From: Verrucomicrobiota bacterium
GTDB taxonomy: Bacteria > Verrucomicrobiota > Verrucomicrobiia > Limisphaerales > JAFGQR01
Length of the DNA stretch: 64,000 nucleotides
Assembly: GCA_016935555.1 (NCBI GenBank)
Contig: JAFGQR010000106.1
Location: forward strand, 57,177-121,176
Direction of reading: 5' to 3'
Shown here: positions 7,301 through 11,443 of the stretch, piece after piece
How the letters are laid out: every line of letters starts with the position of its first letter
How positions within the stretch are numbered: position 1 is the stretch's first letter
The notes under the pieces: model-generated
Seen by the model: only the letters and a program-made list of their open reading frames with translations
Databases searched by the model: none
Told to the model about the DNA's origin: nothing
Program-made: the position numbers and the translations under genes

Positions 7301-9515
7301 CGAATACGTCGAACTCCACAACATTTCCGCGGAGAGCGCGCCCTTGTACGATCCGGATCATTCCACCAACACGTGGCGCCTGCGCGACGCCGTCGCCTTC
7401 ACCTTCCCCACCCACCAGAGCCTGCCGCCAGGCGGCTACGCCCTGGTCGTCGGCTTCGACCCGTCCCAGGACGCCGAGGTCGAGGCGTTCCGCTTGCGCA
7501 ACGGCGTCCCCGCCGGAGTGCCGGTTTACGGCCCGTGGGACGGCGAGCTCAACAACGCCTCCGACCGCGTCGAACTGGTCAAGCCGGATGTGCCCGACGC
7601 CGCCGACGGCGACGTGCCGTGGGTGCTGGTGGAGCGGATCAAGTACGCCGACCAAGCGCCCTGGCCCGGGGCCGCAGACGGGCTGGGCTACGCGTTGCAG
7701 CGGCGCGCGCTGGGCGAATACGGGAATGACCCCGCCCACTGGGGAGCGGCGACGCCGACGCCCGGAACCGCGGCCGGCACAGGCGCGATCCCTGTCATCA
7801 CCGTCCACCCCGCCGATCAGACAGTGGTGGAACTCCAGCCGGTGTCGTTCCTTGTGGAGGTGGAAGGCGCCGGGCCGTTCACCTACGCGTGGCGTTGCAA
7901 CGGCCGGCTGATCGACGGCGCCACCAACGCCACCCTGCTGATTCCAAGCGCCCGCGCCAGCCACGTGGGCACCTACTCGGTCCTGGTGTCCAGTGCGGGC
8001 TGGGTGGCCATGAGCAGCAACGCCGTGCTCCGCGTCCAGACCGTGCCCGTGATCACGGTTCAGCCTGAAGGCAAACTCGTGAATGCAGGTTCGAACGTGA
8101 CCTTCTCCGTCAGCGCCGTCGGCACCGGACCGCTGACGTACCAGTGGCGGCGCTACGCAGTGGACATCCCCTGGGGCACGAACGCCTCCATCACCATCAC
8201 CAACGCCCGCTTCGACATCAACGACGGCTACTATGCGGTCCTCGTCAGCGACACCATCGGCTCGCGCGAGAGCGACCCGGCGCGGCTGACCGTCAAACAG
8301 CGCCCGGGCATCCTGGTGCCGCTGGCCATCAGCCCGGGCACCAACCTGCTCGAAGGCCGCAGTTACACCATGTCCATCACCGCCACCGGCAATCCGCCCA
8401 TGGGCTTCCGGTTCCGATTGAGCAGCGGGCCCACCCCGAACCAGTACTTCGCGATCATCGTGTGCGATTCGAACGTGAACACCGCCGTGCTGGCGGTGGA
8501 CAACCTCAAGTCGAACCTGCACACGGGGGTGTACGACGTCGGCATCACCAACGCCGGCGGCAGCCTGCTCAGCACAAAGCTGTCCGTCGTCGTGTCCAAC
8601 GCCCCGCCGTTCTTCGCCCTTCAGCCGGCCGATCAAACGATCGCGGCCGGCGGCACCGCCACGCTGGTTTCCGAAGCCCGCGGCACCGATCCCATCGGGT
8701 ATCAGTGGTTCTTTAACACCACGCCGATTCCGGGTGCGACCAACGCGAGCCTGGTGCTGGCGGACGTCGAGGCGGCGAACCAGGGCGCCTATGTTGCCGT
8801 CGCGAGCAATTACCTGGGCAGCGCCACCAGCTCGGTGGCGCAATTGACCGTCGAAGCCGCACCCGCCGGTCCTCAGATCGTTCTGCAACCCACCAACCAG
8901 ATCGTCACCCCGTGCATGCCCGCGGTGTTCGTCGTCGATGCCACCAGCCCGTCGCCGCTGGGCTACCAGTGGTTTTTCAATGGCACCAACGCGCTGGCCG
9001 GCGCCACCAACGCCACCTACGCCATCGCCAAACCCCTCCCCGCCCACCAGGGCGACTACACCGTCGTCGTCACCAACACCGGCGGCGCCGCCACCAGCGA
9101 CGTGGCCACCCTTGTGGTTCAGTTGGGCGACTGCGACACCGACGGCATGCCGGACGCCTGGGAACTGCAATACGGTCTCGATCCCACCGACCCGGCCGAC
9201 GCCGACCTGGACCCCGACCGCGACGGCCGCAGCAATGTCCAGGAAGCCATCAGCGGCACGGATCCGAACAGCGCGCTCAGCGTGCTGAAGGTGAGCCTGG
9301 CCAACGGCGGCAGCGGCGCGGCGGTGATCCGGTTCATGGCGATGCCGGGCATTGGGTATTCGGTGCTGCACCGGAACAACCCGGCGTCGGGCGCGTGGCT
9401 GGTGCTGACGAACCTCGAACCGCTGGCCGTCACCAACCTCATCCAGGTGGTTGATCCGGATGCCGGCGCCGCCGGAAGCCGGTTCTACCGGCTGGTGACG
9501 CCGATGCAGCGCTGA
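1368..9515 (+). CDS. Giant secreted surface protein: lamin-tail domains, LamG, CotH kinase-like domain, Ig-like repeats, C-terminal Ca-binding DxDxDG (TSP3-like) motif
   Basis: ATG at 1368 followed by signal peptide MNKIRFAIAMMVLAFVAQAAAA; 'YISEFMAWN…DWIEIHNPT…DLDNWYLTD' (LTD), 'VQLRGNTTAGYAKKSHRFEFN' (CotH), several Ig-like units, 'DCDTDGMPDAWELQYGLDPTDPADADLDPDRDG'. Confidence 0.85.
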   Translation: MNKIRFAIAMMVLAFVAQAAAAPLFERGATWRWRPGSTEASSPVNAWRTNGFNDAEFVSAPAPFWYGDALAGGTQITGMSGVYGCIFLRLPFVVTNVNEIAALRMGALVDDGFIAWINGTEVLRVNSTNPPGTAVSISDFLVNAAEPVAFTSYSLPAPPTYLVDGTNMMAVQVFQSSLGSSDLGFDASLDSILVETNPPVIVSVTPEPYSTVNRLTELTVTFSEPVTGVDAYDLLLNGARASGMTPLSSTTYQFWFPQPAYGTVTITWDAAHGIADEALPPNPFDREDDLGNWYYTLVDNTPPVLASASPAAGATVRWLTNISVLFSEAVTGVDAADLLINGNAATGMVERAADTYMFSFPQPPTGQVQVAWIASHGITDQSAAANPFGGGAWEYTLDPNAATSQPYISEFMAWNVSAVMDEDGDYSDWIEIHNPTAAAVDLDNWYLTDNLDNLTKWRFPATNLVSGGYLLVWASEKNRRVPGAPLHTSFKLSAGGEDLALVRGDTGTIVSHFKLYPPQAVNVSYGVGSLTTNETVIATNAPARVRVPLNANDGLAWTQLGYDDSTWTPGTNGVGYGNPNATSADYGAVVAPTQPVGFWRFSETSGTTAANAGSGAGLNGLYSGATLGSAGPRPPAFAGFEENNTAPTFNGSSSYVSVNNSLLNGVGAFTIAGWVKCATTSFSRTGLFGQNDCVEFGFISAGTLQCWTPSGGSLNVTYTPTVGTWFHVAAVGNGSTIRIFINGVQAGSGDTATTSYGSSSSHFNIGGGGIYDAAGNFFNGQIDEVVAYHRALNDAEIASLYQGALQPAVVAVTPYVKTDIASAMSNINASAYVRLPFTIEDPTRVAALTLKMRYDDGFVAFLNGSEAARANAPATLAYDSAATADHSPGVVQDIRLGALTLQAGANLLAIQGLNRAAGNEDFLVQAELVVTYVAAASSNPLYFSPATPGMENIGGVIYPGPSILNPTHTPNTPLDDQDLVVTAQVVPTFNAVGSVVMRYRTMFNPEIEVAMADDGAHGDGAAGDGWYGATIPASAGTNGQMIRWFIRATDALGNGSRWPLFNGADSTEYLGTVVNPDYVTSKLPIIHLFAPATILQPGPGATSQTGADSQAGSRGVSLYYDGEFYDNIQVQLRGNTTAGYAKKSHRFEFNRDHLFRHAGAGFGKPDRPAPRISKTSFVADYPDPTYMRQGLTFWLCDLIGSPGSFYYPVRLQLNGKFYQLANHNDVQVADLLERIGFDPNGALYNAAGTVQPSRQSTGGFEKKTRKWDNDNDYAALAASLYETNSVGTRGTNFFEQFDVPNAINYLVAARWAHENDDVWANMSLYHDNDGDNLWRIIAFDVNLSWGAIFYEGSTTSVIEGVQATNDIHKAHPLYGSSQTLALSGPGAPNNFNRVYDTVFQYAPLREMFLRRMRTMMDTCVKPPGTPLEELPMEQKVLEWRDLIAEEAELDRNYWGWPGKGGQCNFDPGIRMTNGVTAMINEFIVKRRHHFHVKHCVTNTALPVGISKAQNAGIPLSQSDTLLIDITAVEFNPASGNQDQEYIVLVNHSAEAADLSGWTLSGGVDFTFAPGTVIPAGDTLYVSPNVRQFRARTTDPRGGQGLFVVGPYRGQLSARGETILLADRQGRPVASRTYAGEPSLAQQYLRVTEIMYNPGDTQQDFEYLKLKNVGPVALDLAGIHFTNGIYFGFTGSAVTSLAPGQTVLIVASTNAFASRYGAGFAIAGEYDGFLENGGERLRLLDAMNEEILDFEYDDGWYPLTDGLGFSLIAVDELAEPDAWGRKSQWRASGYLGSPGEASPSVPVLAPIVINEALTHTDPPTLDTIELYNPTATNVDLGGWFLTDDPNTPWKYRIAEGTVIPAGGYLCFDESQFNAASPAPGVLQPFALDADGDEVYLLSGDATTNLTGYMQGFDFGAAPSGVTFGRHVTSVGEDHFVAQSAPTLTRVNAGPLVGPIVISEIMYHPPDVFVDGDWQDNNADEYVELHNISAESAPLYDPDHSTNTWRLRDAVAFTFPTHQSLPPGGYALVVGFDPSQDAEVEAFRLRNGVPAGVPVYGPWDGELNNASDRVELVKPDVPDAADGDVPWVLVERIKYADQAPWPGAADGLGYALQRRALGEYGNDPAHWGAATPTPGTAAGTGAIPVITVHPADQTVVELQPVSFLVEVEGAGPFTYAWRCNGRLIDGATNATLLIPSARASHVGTYSVLVSSAGWVAMSSNAVLRVQTVPVITVQPEGKLVNAGSNVTFSVSAVGTGPLTYQWRRYAVDIPWGTNASITITNARFDINDGYYAVLVSDTIGSRESDPARLTVKQRPGILVPLAISPGTNLLEGRSYTMSITATGNPPMGFRFRLSSGPTPNQYFAIIVCDSNVNTAVLAVDNLKSNLHTGVYDVGITNAGGSLLSTKLSVVVSNAPPFFALQPADQTIAAGGTATLVSEARGTDPIGYQWFFNTTPIPGATNASLVLADVEAANQGAYVAVASNYLGSATSSVAQLTVEAAPAGPQIVLQPTNQIVTPCMPAVFVVDATSPSPLGYQWFFNGTNALAGATNATYAIAKPLPAHQGDYTVVVTNTGGAATSDVATLVVQLGDCDTDGMPDAWELQYGLDPTDPADADLDPDRDGRSNVQEAISGTDPNSALSVLKVSLANGGSGAAVIRFMAMPGIGYSVLHRNNPASGAWLVLTNLEPLAVTNLIQVVDPDAGAAGSRFYRLVTPMQR

Positions 9516-9600: not shown

Positions 9601-9631
9601 GGGGTCAGGTCTCAACATTCAACATTTGCCT
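9601..9631. repeat. Left 31-bp inverted repeat of RAYT unit
   Basis: Perfect reverse complement of 10692-10722. Confidence 0.9.
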
Positions 9632-9665
9632 TGATGCATGGTGCGACATGGGGCATGCTTTTCGC

Positions 9666-10718
9666 ATGGCTCGTCCTTTGCGGGTTGAATGGCCGCGCGC
9701 GTGGTTTCACGTGACCGGCCGCGGCGTTGACCGACGGGCAATCGTCACGGATGACCGTGACCGGCGGCGGTGGCTGGCATTGGTCCAGGAAACCGTGCCA
9801 ATGTTCGGGTGGGTCATCCATGGCTATGTGCTCATGGACAACCATTATCACCTGATCCTGCAGCTCGGTGCGGAGGCGAACCTGTCGCGGGGAATGCACT
9901 GGTTGCAGACCAGCTACAGCATGGGATTCAACCGGCGACATCATCGGGTGGGGCCATTATTTCAAGGGCGGTTTGGCGCAGAGCTCGTCGAGGCCGAAGT
10001 GTGGGGTCTGGAACTGAGCCGTTATGTGCATCTGAATCCGGTGCGGATAACCCGGTTGGAATTGGATAAGCGGGCACGGCAAGCGGATCGGCTGGGGGTG
10101 CGGGGCAAACCCGACGCGGCGCAGGTCCGCGAGCGGGTGCAGCCCCTACGGCACTACCGCTGGAGCTCGTATCGTGCCTATGCGGGGCTGGAACCCGCTC
10201 CGGCATGGCTGACGACGTCGGTGCTCTTGGATCGGTGTGGCAAGGGAGGAGTCCGGGCACGGCACATGGTGTATGCGCGCTATGTGGAAAGTGCAATCCG
10301 GCAAGGATTGGAGGAAAGCCCGTGGGATCACATGCAGGCGCGGATCATCTTGGGCGGAAAACAGTTTGTGGAGAAGGTGCGTCGCCTGATGGGAGGTTCG
10401 CCGCGCGAGCAGCCCCAACGTCGGGCATTAGTGAAGCGGCCGACGTGGAACCAGGTGGTGCGGGTCGTGGAACGCGTGCGTGGGGAAAGATGGGAAACGC
10501 TGCGGGAACGCCATGGCGATTGGGGACGGGAGCTGGCGCTGTATTTGGGGCGGCGGCACTGCGGATTGCCGTTGCGCGAGTTGGGGGTGGCGGTGGGCGG
10601 ATTGGATTACGCCGCGGTGAGCGTAGCCGTCAAGCGGTATGAGCGGCGTCTGGCCCGGGAGAAACCGCTGCGGAACGCCGTCGAAAGCGCGAGGCAAATG
10701 TTGAATGTTGAGACCTGA
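9666..10718 (+). CDS. REP-associated tyrosine transposase (Y1_Tnp / IS200-like), with C-terminal DnaA-C-like helix-turn-helix region
   Basis: 'WFHVTGRG', HUH motif 'MDNHYHLIL', 'GLFQGRF'-type motif (VGPLFQGRF), 'YVHLNPVR'; C-term 'LRELGVAVGGLDYAAVSVAVKRYERRL' resembles a DnaA box-binding helix. Confidence 0.88.
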   Translation: MARPLRVEWPRAWFHVTGRGVDRRAIVTDDRDRRRWLALVQETVPMFGWVIHGYVLMDNHYHLILQLGAEANLSRGMHWLQTSYSMGFNRRHHRVGPLFQGRFGAELVEAEVWGLELSRYVHLNPVRITRLELDKRARQADRLGVRGKPDAAQVRERVQPLRHYRWSSYRAYAGLEPAPAWLTTSVLLDRCGKGGVRARHMVYARYVESAIRQGLEESPWDHMQARIILGGKQFVEKVRRLMGGSPREQPQRRALVKRPTWNQVVRVVERVRGERWETLRERHGDWGRELALYLGRRHCGLPLRELGVAVGGLDYAAVSVAVKRYERRLAREKPLRNAVESARQMLNVET

Positions 10719-10722
10719 CCCC
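10692..10722. repeat. Right 31-bp inverted repeat of RAYT unit (overlaps transposase stop codon)
   Basis: Perfect reverse complement of 9601-9631; stop TGA at 10716-10718 lies within it. Confidence 0.9.
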
Positions 10723-10966
10723 TTTTGCGCAGGGAGGTGCGAACCAAACCTCGATGCCGCTCGACGCCCCCAGGCCCCGCCAGGGTCCAGTGCTCGGTGC
10801 AACGCATGCCCTCAAGGGGAAGTCGCGGACGCGCTGGAACGCGTCCACCTGCGGTTCCAGGAAGCGTGAAGGGCTCCATCGCTGCGCATGCGGATCCCTT
10901 CCAAGCCAAGCGGCCGGGGGACCGTGGCGTCGCAACGGCATGAAGATAGCCGGGAGGCCTGCGCGA

Positions 10967-11443
10967 TCAGGAAGGGGCGGGCTCGGCGCCGTCGGTCTTG
11001 GAAGGGGCGGGCTCGGCGCCGTCGGTCTTGGAAGGGGCGGGGGCGGTTTCGGCGGCGGGCTTGTCGGCGGCGGGTTTGGCGGGGGCGGGCATGTCGATCC
11101 ACTCGAGGATGGCCATGGAGGCGGCGTCGCCGATGCGCGGGTGAAGGCGGACGATGCGGGTGTAGCCGCCGTCGCGGTCTTTGAAGAAGGGGGCGATGTC
11201 CTTGAAGAGGACGCGGCAGGCGTCCTCCTGGTGGAGGCGGGCGGCGGCGAGGCGGCGATGGTGAAGGGAGCCGAGTTTGCCGAGGGTGACCATTTTTTCG
11301 GCGACGGAGCGGGCGGCTTTGGCTTTGGCGAGGGTGGTGGTGACGCGGCGCTGTTTGATAAGGCTGCAGACGAGGTTGGCGAGCATGGCGTTGCGATGCT
11401 CCGAGGTGCGCCCCAGTTTGGCGGTTCGTTTGCGGTGTCGCAT
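10967..11443 (-). CDS. rplQ: 50S ribosomal protein L17 with repetitive C-terminal tail
   Basis: MRHRKRTAKLGRTSEHRNAMLANLVCSLI…; alpha operon position. Confidence 0.97.
   Translation of the reverse strand: MRHRKRTAKLGRTSEHRNAMLANLVCSLIKQRRVTTTLAKAKAARSVAEKMVTLGKLGSLHHRRLAAARLHQEDACRVLFKDIAPFFKDRDGGYTRIVRLHPRIGDAASMAILEWIDMPAPAKPAADKPAAETAPAPSKTDGAEPAPSKTDGAEPAPS
10971..11040. repeat. 30-bp tandem repeat (2.3 copies) encoding PAPSKTDGAE in L17 tail
   Basis: gaaggggcgggctcggcgccgtcggtcttg at 10971-11000 and 11001-11030 plus a partial copy. Confidence 0.9.

Follow-up and report, generated by a model that had tools for sequence, protein, structure and literature searches.

We found that a unit at positions 9601-10722 of a 64,000-nucleotide stretch of Verrucomicrobiota bacterium DNA (contig JAFGQR010000106.1 of assembly GCA_016935555.1, positions 57,177 to 121,176 of the forward strand; hereafter, the window) is probably a TIRYT transposon (TIRtron), i.e. 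a RAYT-like Y1 transposase gene framed by terminal inverted repeats (TIRs). Each TIR probably has two parts, with an outer tip read by the HUH nuclease domain and tandem heptamers read by a C-terminal DnaA-like domain, and with base 2 of the heptamer set by residues 316 and 320 of the protein. For TIRYT transposases as a class we lean, with less assurance, toward the same picture: two-reader enzymes in which HUH reads a shared tip and the DnaA-derived domain reads an element-specific heptamer through a simple code linking residues 316 and 320 to base 2.

Architecture of the element

Each of the two arms, 9601-9631 and 10692-10722, measures 31 nt; they are 100% complementary and 1060 nt apart, and the 26-mer core of the TIR had 0 chance matches in 100 shuffles of the window. 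The TGA stop of the transposase gene (10716-10718) lies within the right arm, and CAACATT CAACATT is present in each arm. In all three respects (perfect repeat, stop codon inside its right copy, tandem CAACATT), the first-pass annotation, made from the letters of the window, had described the unit correctly. The coding sequence is best started, by homology, at ATG 9666 (350 aa), 65 nt inward of the left end. The GGGGWSAS motif of TIRYTs reads GGGGTCAG here and occupies the outer end of both arms. The features are as follows.

9601..9631, + strand: left TIR, 31 bp, matching the right arm perfectly; the conserved tip of relatives starts sharply at its position 1
9601..9612, + strand: left tip GGGGTCAGGTCT, the TIR part that tracks the HUH domain in similarity comparisons
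9613..9626, + strand: left tandem heptamer CAACATT CAACATT, putative sites of the DnaA-like domain (lag-7 periodicity, covariation)
9666..10718, + strand: TIRYT transposase coding sequence, 350 aa plus stop (Y1_Tnp, weak Bac_DnaA_C, AlphaFold, Foldseek and DnaA profile matches)
10596..10655, + strand: codons of the DnaA-like recognition helix, GGLDYAAVSVAVKRYERRLA, residues 311-330, including the putative specificity residues A316 and V320
10692..10722, - strand: right TIR, 31 bp, covering the 3' end of the coding sequence and its stop
10697..10710, - strand: right tandem heptamer CAACATT CAACATT (from sequence)
10711..10722, - strand: right tip GGGGTCAGGTCT (from sequence)

A two-domain transposase

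A profile search of the 350-aa protein matched Y1_Tnp at 7.4e-9, Bac_DnaA_C of Pfam weakly and below cutoff at 0.0058, and NCBIfam REP_Tyr_transpos (NF047646) under its curated cutoff. The protein has the HUH/Y1 motif H60-Y-H62, the catalytic Y120 within YVHLNP, and a C-terminal helix-turn-helix (HTH) like that of DnaA domain IV at approximately 252-346; H60, H62, Y120, N124 and P125 do not vary among 61 aligned relatives. The AlphaFold2 model has a mean predicted local distance difference test score (pLDDT) of 89.5 and a predicted template modelling score (pTM) of 0.72, with low confidence in a linker near 245-248. Foldseek returned 4er8 (TnpA_REP with its hairpin) as the top solved structure, followed by IS608 and ISDra2, and found the C-terminal part similar to the DNA-bound DnaA DNA-binding domain of M. 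tuberculosis (3pvp) at a target-normalised TM-score of 0.83. The family profile matched DnaA chains down to 3.1e-9, including E. coli DnaA domain IV (1j1v) at 7.8e-9. Hence, by profile and fold, the protein combines an HUH nuclease with a reader like DnaA domain IV. Residue 316 aligns with T435 of E. coli DnaA, and the T435M variant is defective in DnaA-box binding (PMC5742627).

The TIRs of relatives are bipartite

Relatives were drawn from 388 genomes of the phylum, 297 of a second phylum, and 12 behind matches to the 26-mer, and an inverted repeat at the gene ends scoring at least 13 was called TIR-like. Such a repeat is present in 207 of the 240 usable loci vs 2 of 720 shuffled windows. 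We found that conservation sets in abruptly with the first G of the tip, the sequence outside being weakly conserved, and that, in about 180 framed relatives, positions 1-12 are near-constant and close to GGGGTCAGnCCT. Arm-to-arm symmetry is nonetheless 0.54 and 0.55 at positions -1 and -2 (vs about 0.3); hence, the functional end may lie one or two bases outside the G run.

A tandem heptamer follows at positions 13-19 and 20-26, with an identity of 0.596 at lag 7 vs 0.27-0.33 at other lags and a maximum of 0.47 in 5000 between-element permutations. The heptamer word varies among elements, and the two copies within one element tend to agree. In the second phylum, the repeat has a lag of 7 in elements with CT-type tips (0.54) and a lag of 8 in all others (0.54). 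The doubled CAACATT thus belongs to the conserved structure of these TIRs. The first-pass annotation had noted the duplication but not its conservation, and it had also overlooked the DnaA-domain-IV-like domain at the C-terminus of the protein.

The two parts of the TIR mostly track different domains

Pairwise similarities were compared by partial rank correlation in three subsets. We used the left arm, which is upstream of the gene, so the coding overlap of the right arm cannot create the signal; the C-domain columns compared also end ahead of the codons that overlap the right arm. In every set, similarity of the tip (7-12) tracks HUH identity given the C-domain (partial rho 0.31-0.64), and heptamer similarity tracks the C-domain given HUH (partial rho 0.16-0.24), with 0 of 200 permutations as high in either case. 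In the first phylum and the lag-8 group, the heptamers do not track the HUH domain at all. For the DNA just inside the heptamers (27-36), there is no clear tracking of either domain.

Residues 316 and 320 covary with base 2 of the heptamer

Across the whole family, mutual information between residues and bases is mixed: the top pairs of the tip fall on T82 and also on Y315, and position 14 pairs with A316. Hence, we rely on a test within the close clade, whose recognition helices include DYAA, DYKT, DYRS and others. Rules for A316 and for K/R316 were fixed in writing before a second set of sequences was read. We found A316 together with A at base 2 in 13 of 13 cases (7/7 in the first set and 6/6 in the second), and K/R316 together with G at base 2 in 6/6 and 4/5, respectively. 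K320, one helix turn along, occurs with G at base 2 in 15/15 cases, 8 of them without K/R316. A truncated sister gene in the same genome carries both A316 and K320 in its helix (GGLSGAATAKAV), and its heptamers are of the G type, which is consistent with dominance of K320.

A tree built from the HUH domain only shows 9 changes of A316 and 10 of base A. All 5 independent pairs that lie on supported branches are concordant (two-sided p 0.0625, as low as five pairs allow).

Copies and miniatures in the host genome

A pattern search of the 5.29-Mb assembly found 11 matches to the TIR core at no more than 3 mismatches (control, 0). They include 63-bp inverted pairs of the TIR without a transposase on two contigs (C87 and C114), a direct pair on C96, and solo TIRs on C89 and C49; the transposase gene itself is single-copy in the genome. 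The search for solo or paired repeats lacking a transposase, proposed in the first-pass annotation, thus returned both kinds, contrary to the outcome (a 31-mer found nowhere else) that would have refuted that annotation. A related repeat, GGGGTCACGTCTGGACATTGGACATT, forms a second family of 15 matches (control, 0); among them are three dispersed 68-bp miniatures (C96, C173 and C186) with the same asymmetric arms, and one copy adjoins the truncated sister gene on C185. As single strands, the 63-bp and 68-bp units form long stems (z about -10), whereas an arm on its own stays unfolded (0 kcal/mol). This layout of miniatures is that of RAYTs and REPINs, with TIRs replacing REPs.

The sister TIRYT (L013, G000:C185:103353-103688) retains only its DnaA-like C-terminal part, and the TIR family beside this broken gene is more numerous (15 matches) than that of the intact gene (11).

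Distribution in other genomes

The exact 26-mer is present in 19 contigs, mostly in records of Elusimicrobia, Deltaproteobacteria, Nitrospirota, Kiritimatiellales, Lentisphaerota and Aminicenantes, often as inverted pairs. Four contigs of one deltaproteobacterial genome (L048, L059, L060 and L062) carry the same 83-bp-type inverted pair, one 26-mer arm of which is identical to the TIR of the window. Within the same order, 57 other genomes gave a weak single match in only 2, and the TIRYT gene adjacent to rplQ is missing in 9 of 9 relatives with a matching rplQ region. Such a patchy distribution would be expected of something acquired or mobile, and does not prove recent movement. As the first-pass annotation stated for this locus, no target-site duplication is seen beside the unit, and none of 2-10 nt was found among 182 elements; the TTT on both sides here was rejected as a duplication, given no trend across the 182. 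Carriage on a plasmid was also rejected, with distant matches only and none spanning 80% of the query.

Two further loci groups were seen among the relatives. One genome has a tandem array of three equally scoring RAYT matches with 836-bp spacing (L143, G140:C1:723711-725763). In one genus (code g4), four RAYT genes (L157, L158, L159 and L168) are about 45% identical over their N-terminal part, and the scan did not detect TIRs at them; these are possibly domesticated forms.

Around the element, the left neighbour is a very large protein with LTD, CotH and Ig domains (end at 9515), and rplQ and rpoA lie beside the element on the opposite strand. The 3' end of rplQ holds a near-perfect tandem repeat (10967-11040) that gives the L17 protein a repeated TDGAEPAPSK tail. 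The approximately 78 bp adjoining the element (10769-10846) have many copies in the genome that are 77-93% identical, several at contig ends; this dispersed family is apparently unrelated to the element.

Proposed mechanism

In a single-gene element of this kind, the Y1/HUH transposase would act on its own 26-31 bp TIRs. The HUH domain would read the 12-nt tip GGGGTCAGGTCT and probably cut there, and the C-terminal DnaA-domain-IV-like HTH would bind the tandem CAACATT as a double strand, base 2 being specified as A by Ala316 and as G by Lys320, often with Lys/Arg316. In single-stranded DNA, the arms could pair as a long stem, presenting double-stranded heptamers and, at the tip, a fork on which the HUH nuclease could act, a route that would give transposition without target duplication. 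The same protein probably moves the short inverted TIR pairs in trans, much as RAYTs are believed to mobilise REPINs.

Weighing the explanations

Several results weigh against this proposal. One K316 protein (L083) breaks the K/R rule stated in advance, the second heptamer is less strict (base 21 of the left arm is A in 4/6 of the second set), the K320 rule was seen in the second set, post hoc, and represents about 3 origins, and the supported pairs on the HUH tree are too few to reach p<0.05. Among the CT-type elements of the second phylum, the heptamers track both domains, and HUH more strongly (0.32 vs 0.19); hence, the division of labour between the domains is blurred in places. No exact empty site turned up among relatives in the order: these are too diverged, and their flanks do not align up to the junction. 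With a single-copy gene and no such site, present-day activity is unproven, and the signs of mobility are indirect, namely the dispersed miniatures and the lack of the element beside rplQ in the 9 relatives.

That the gene is instead a domesticated, immobile RAYT, whose TIRs serve as operators or autoregulatory DnaA-like boxes by the promoter and across the stop, we consider unlikely, with some chance of being right. It would account for the single gene copy and for a left arm just 5' of the start codon, RAYTs are generally seen as vertically inherited and domesticated (PMC8049555), and the four loci of the genus described above have the gene with no TIRs detected. This explanation is countered by arms that are symmetric at both ends, by conservation that ends sharply at the tip, by the recurrence of the repeats as gene-free dispersed inverted miniatures, and by a family that is scattered and almost absent from the same order.

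Less probable still is that descent of whole elements from common ancestors, with no protein-DNA contact, explains the heptamer pattern and the covariation. Ends and genes are indeed co-inherited, and the HUH and C-domain identities are intercorrelated (rho 0.33-0.60); yet the DNA at 27-36 does not follow either domain clearly, in most subsets the tip and the heptamers are each tied to a different domain, the HUH tree shows repeated joint switches of A316 and base 2, and the same base is mostly found in both heptamers of a TIR. To a strict REPtron, with REP palindromes read as hairpins with a GTAG guide, we give almost no weight: the Y1 fold is closest to that of TnpA_REP (4er8) and the miniatures are laid out like REPINs, but the arm contains no GTAG or GTGG, and its failure to fold on its own rules out a REP palindrome. 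The two-part TIR of a TIRYT transposon is thus the reading that we prefer.

Relation to known systems

TIRtrons and TIRYTs with GGGGWSAS TIRs, and TIR families present as singles and dimers, were described in the part of Di Nocera et al. 2013 (PMC3733652) that we consulted. Quentin et al. 2018 (PMC6006769) placed most TIRYTs in subclass 2.1 (RAYT group 1), the largest RAYT-like class in that survey, noted the DnaA-like domain, questioned its role, and left its target open. The covariation offers a testable answer to that question, and the residue-base rule would make cognate TIRs partly predictable from the protein and miniatures assignable to transposases. If true, this would be a rare Y1 single-strand transposase with a replication-initiator DNA-binding domain for element-specific recognition, element identity would depend on a predictable reader of double-stranded DNA carried by a single-strand transposase, and the C-terminal domain would prefer double-stranded CAACATTCAACATT to CGACATTCGACATT. 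In the literature searched, which mostly did not include subscription journals, neither the tandem heptamer nor the two-domain partition nor the residue-base rule turned up; a text search for the tip 8-mer gave nothing on transposons among the matches listed.

By all of the class features examined, the unit belongs to the described but little-studied TIRYT/TIRtron class: it has a Y1 transposase with HUH and Tyr, long non-GTAG TIRs, GGGGWSAS ends, and single and dimeric TIR copies (single, dimeric or grouped copies are known in some members only). As in some of the elements of PMC3733652, a TIR overlaps the gene end; the consulted text notes GGGGWSAS and, as far as it goes, neither the tandem heptamer nor a link between domains and TIR parts. 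TIR framing is usual in this class. The first-pass annotation was therefore right that a RAYT-type transposase has TIRs that also occur as non-autonomous pairs, and its view of the framing as unusual does not hold, as TIRtrons were known in 2013 and 207 of 240 relatives are framed.

The unit also resembles TnpA_Y1 subclass 2.1 (2.1.2; PMC6006769), equivalent to RAYT group 1 of Bertels 2017, in its HUH and YxHLNP motifs, its C-terminal DnaA-like HTH related to Bac_DnaA_C, and its lack of REP palindromes, a placement made by motifs and domains and not by the published tree or hidden Markov model. With REPtrons and the RAYT-REPIN systems (E. coli TnpA_REP, Pseudomonas RAYTs) it shares a single-copy Y1 gene and dispersed short inverted pairs; it differs from them in a single repeat without a palindrome or GTAG guide (flanking REP palindromes with 5' GT[AG]G are absent), in the extra DnaA-like domain, and in full inverted repeats that frame the gene. 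IS200/IS605 elements (IS608, ISDra2) have the same Y1/HUH fold and likewise no target-site duplication, whereas their ends are subterminal hairpins without TIRs, in contrast to the perfect TIRs and unfolded arm here. Finally, the C-terminal fold is homologous to that of DnaA domain IV on the DnaA box (1J1V, 3PVP), with a similar recognition helix (DYAAV here, DHTTV there), and differs in its predicted target, which would be tandem xyACATz heptamers and not TTATNCACA.
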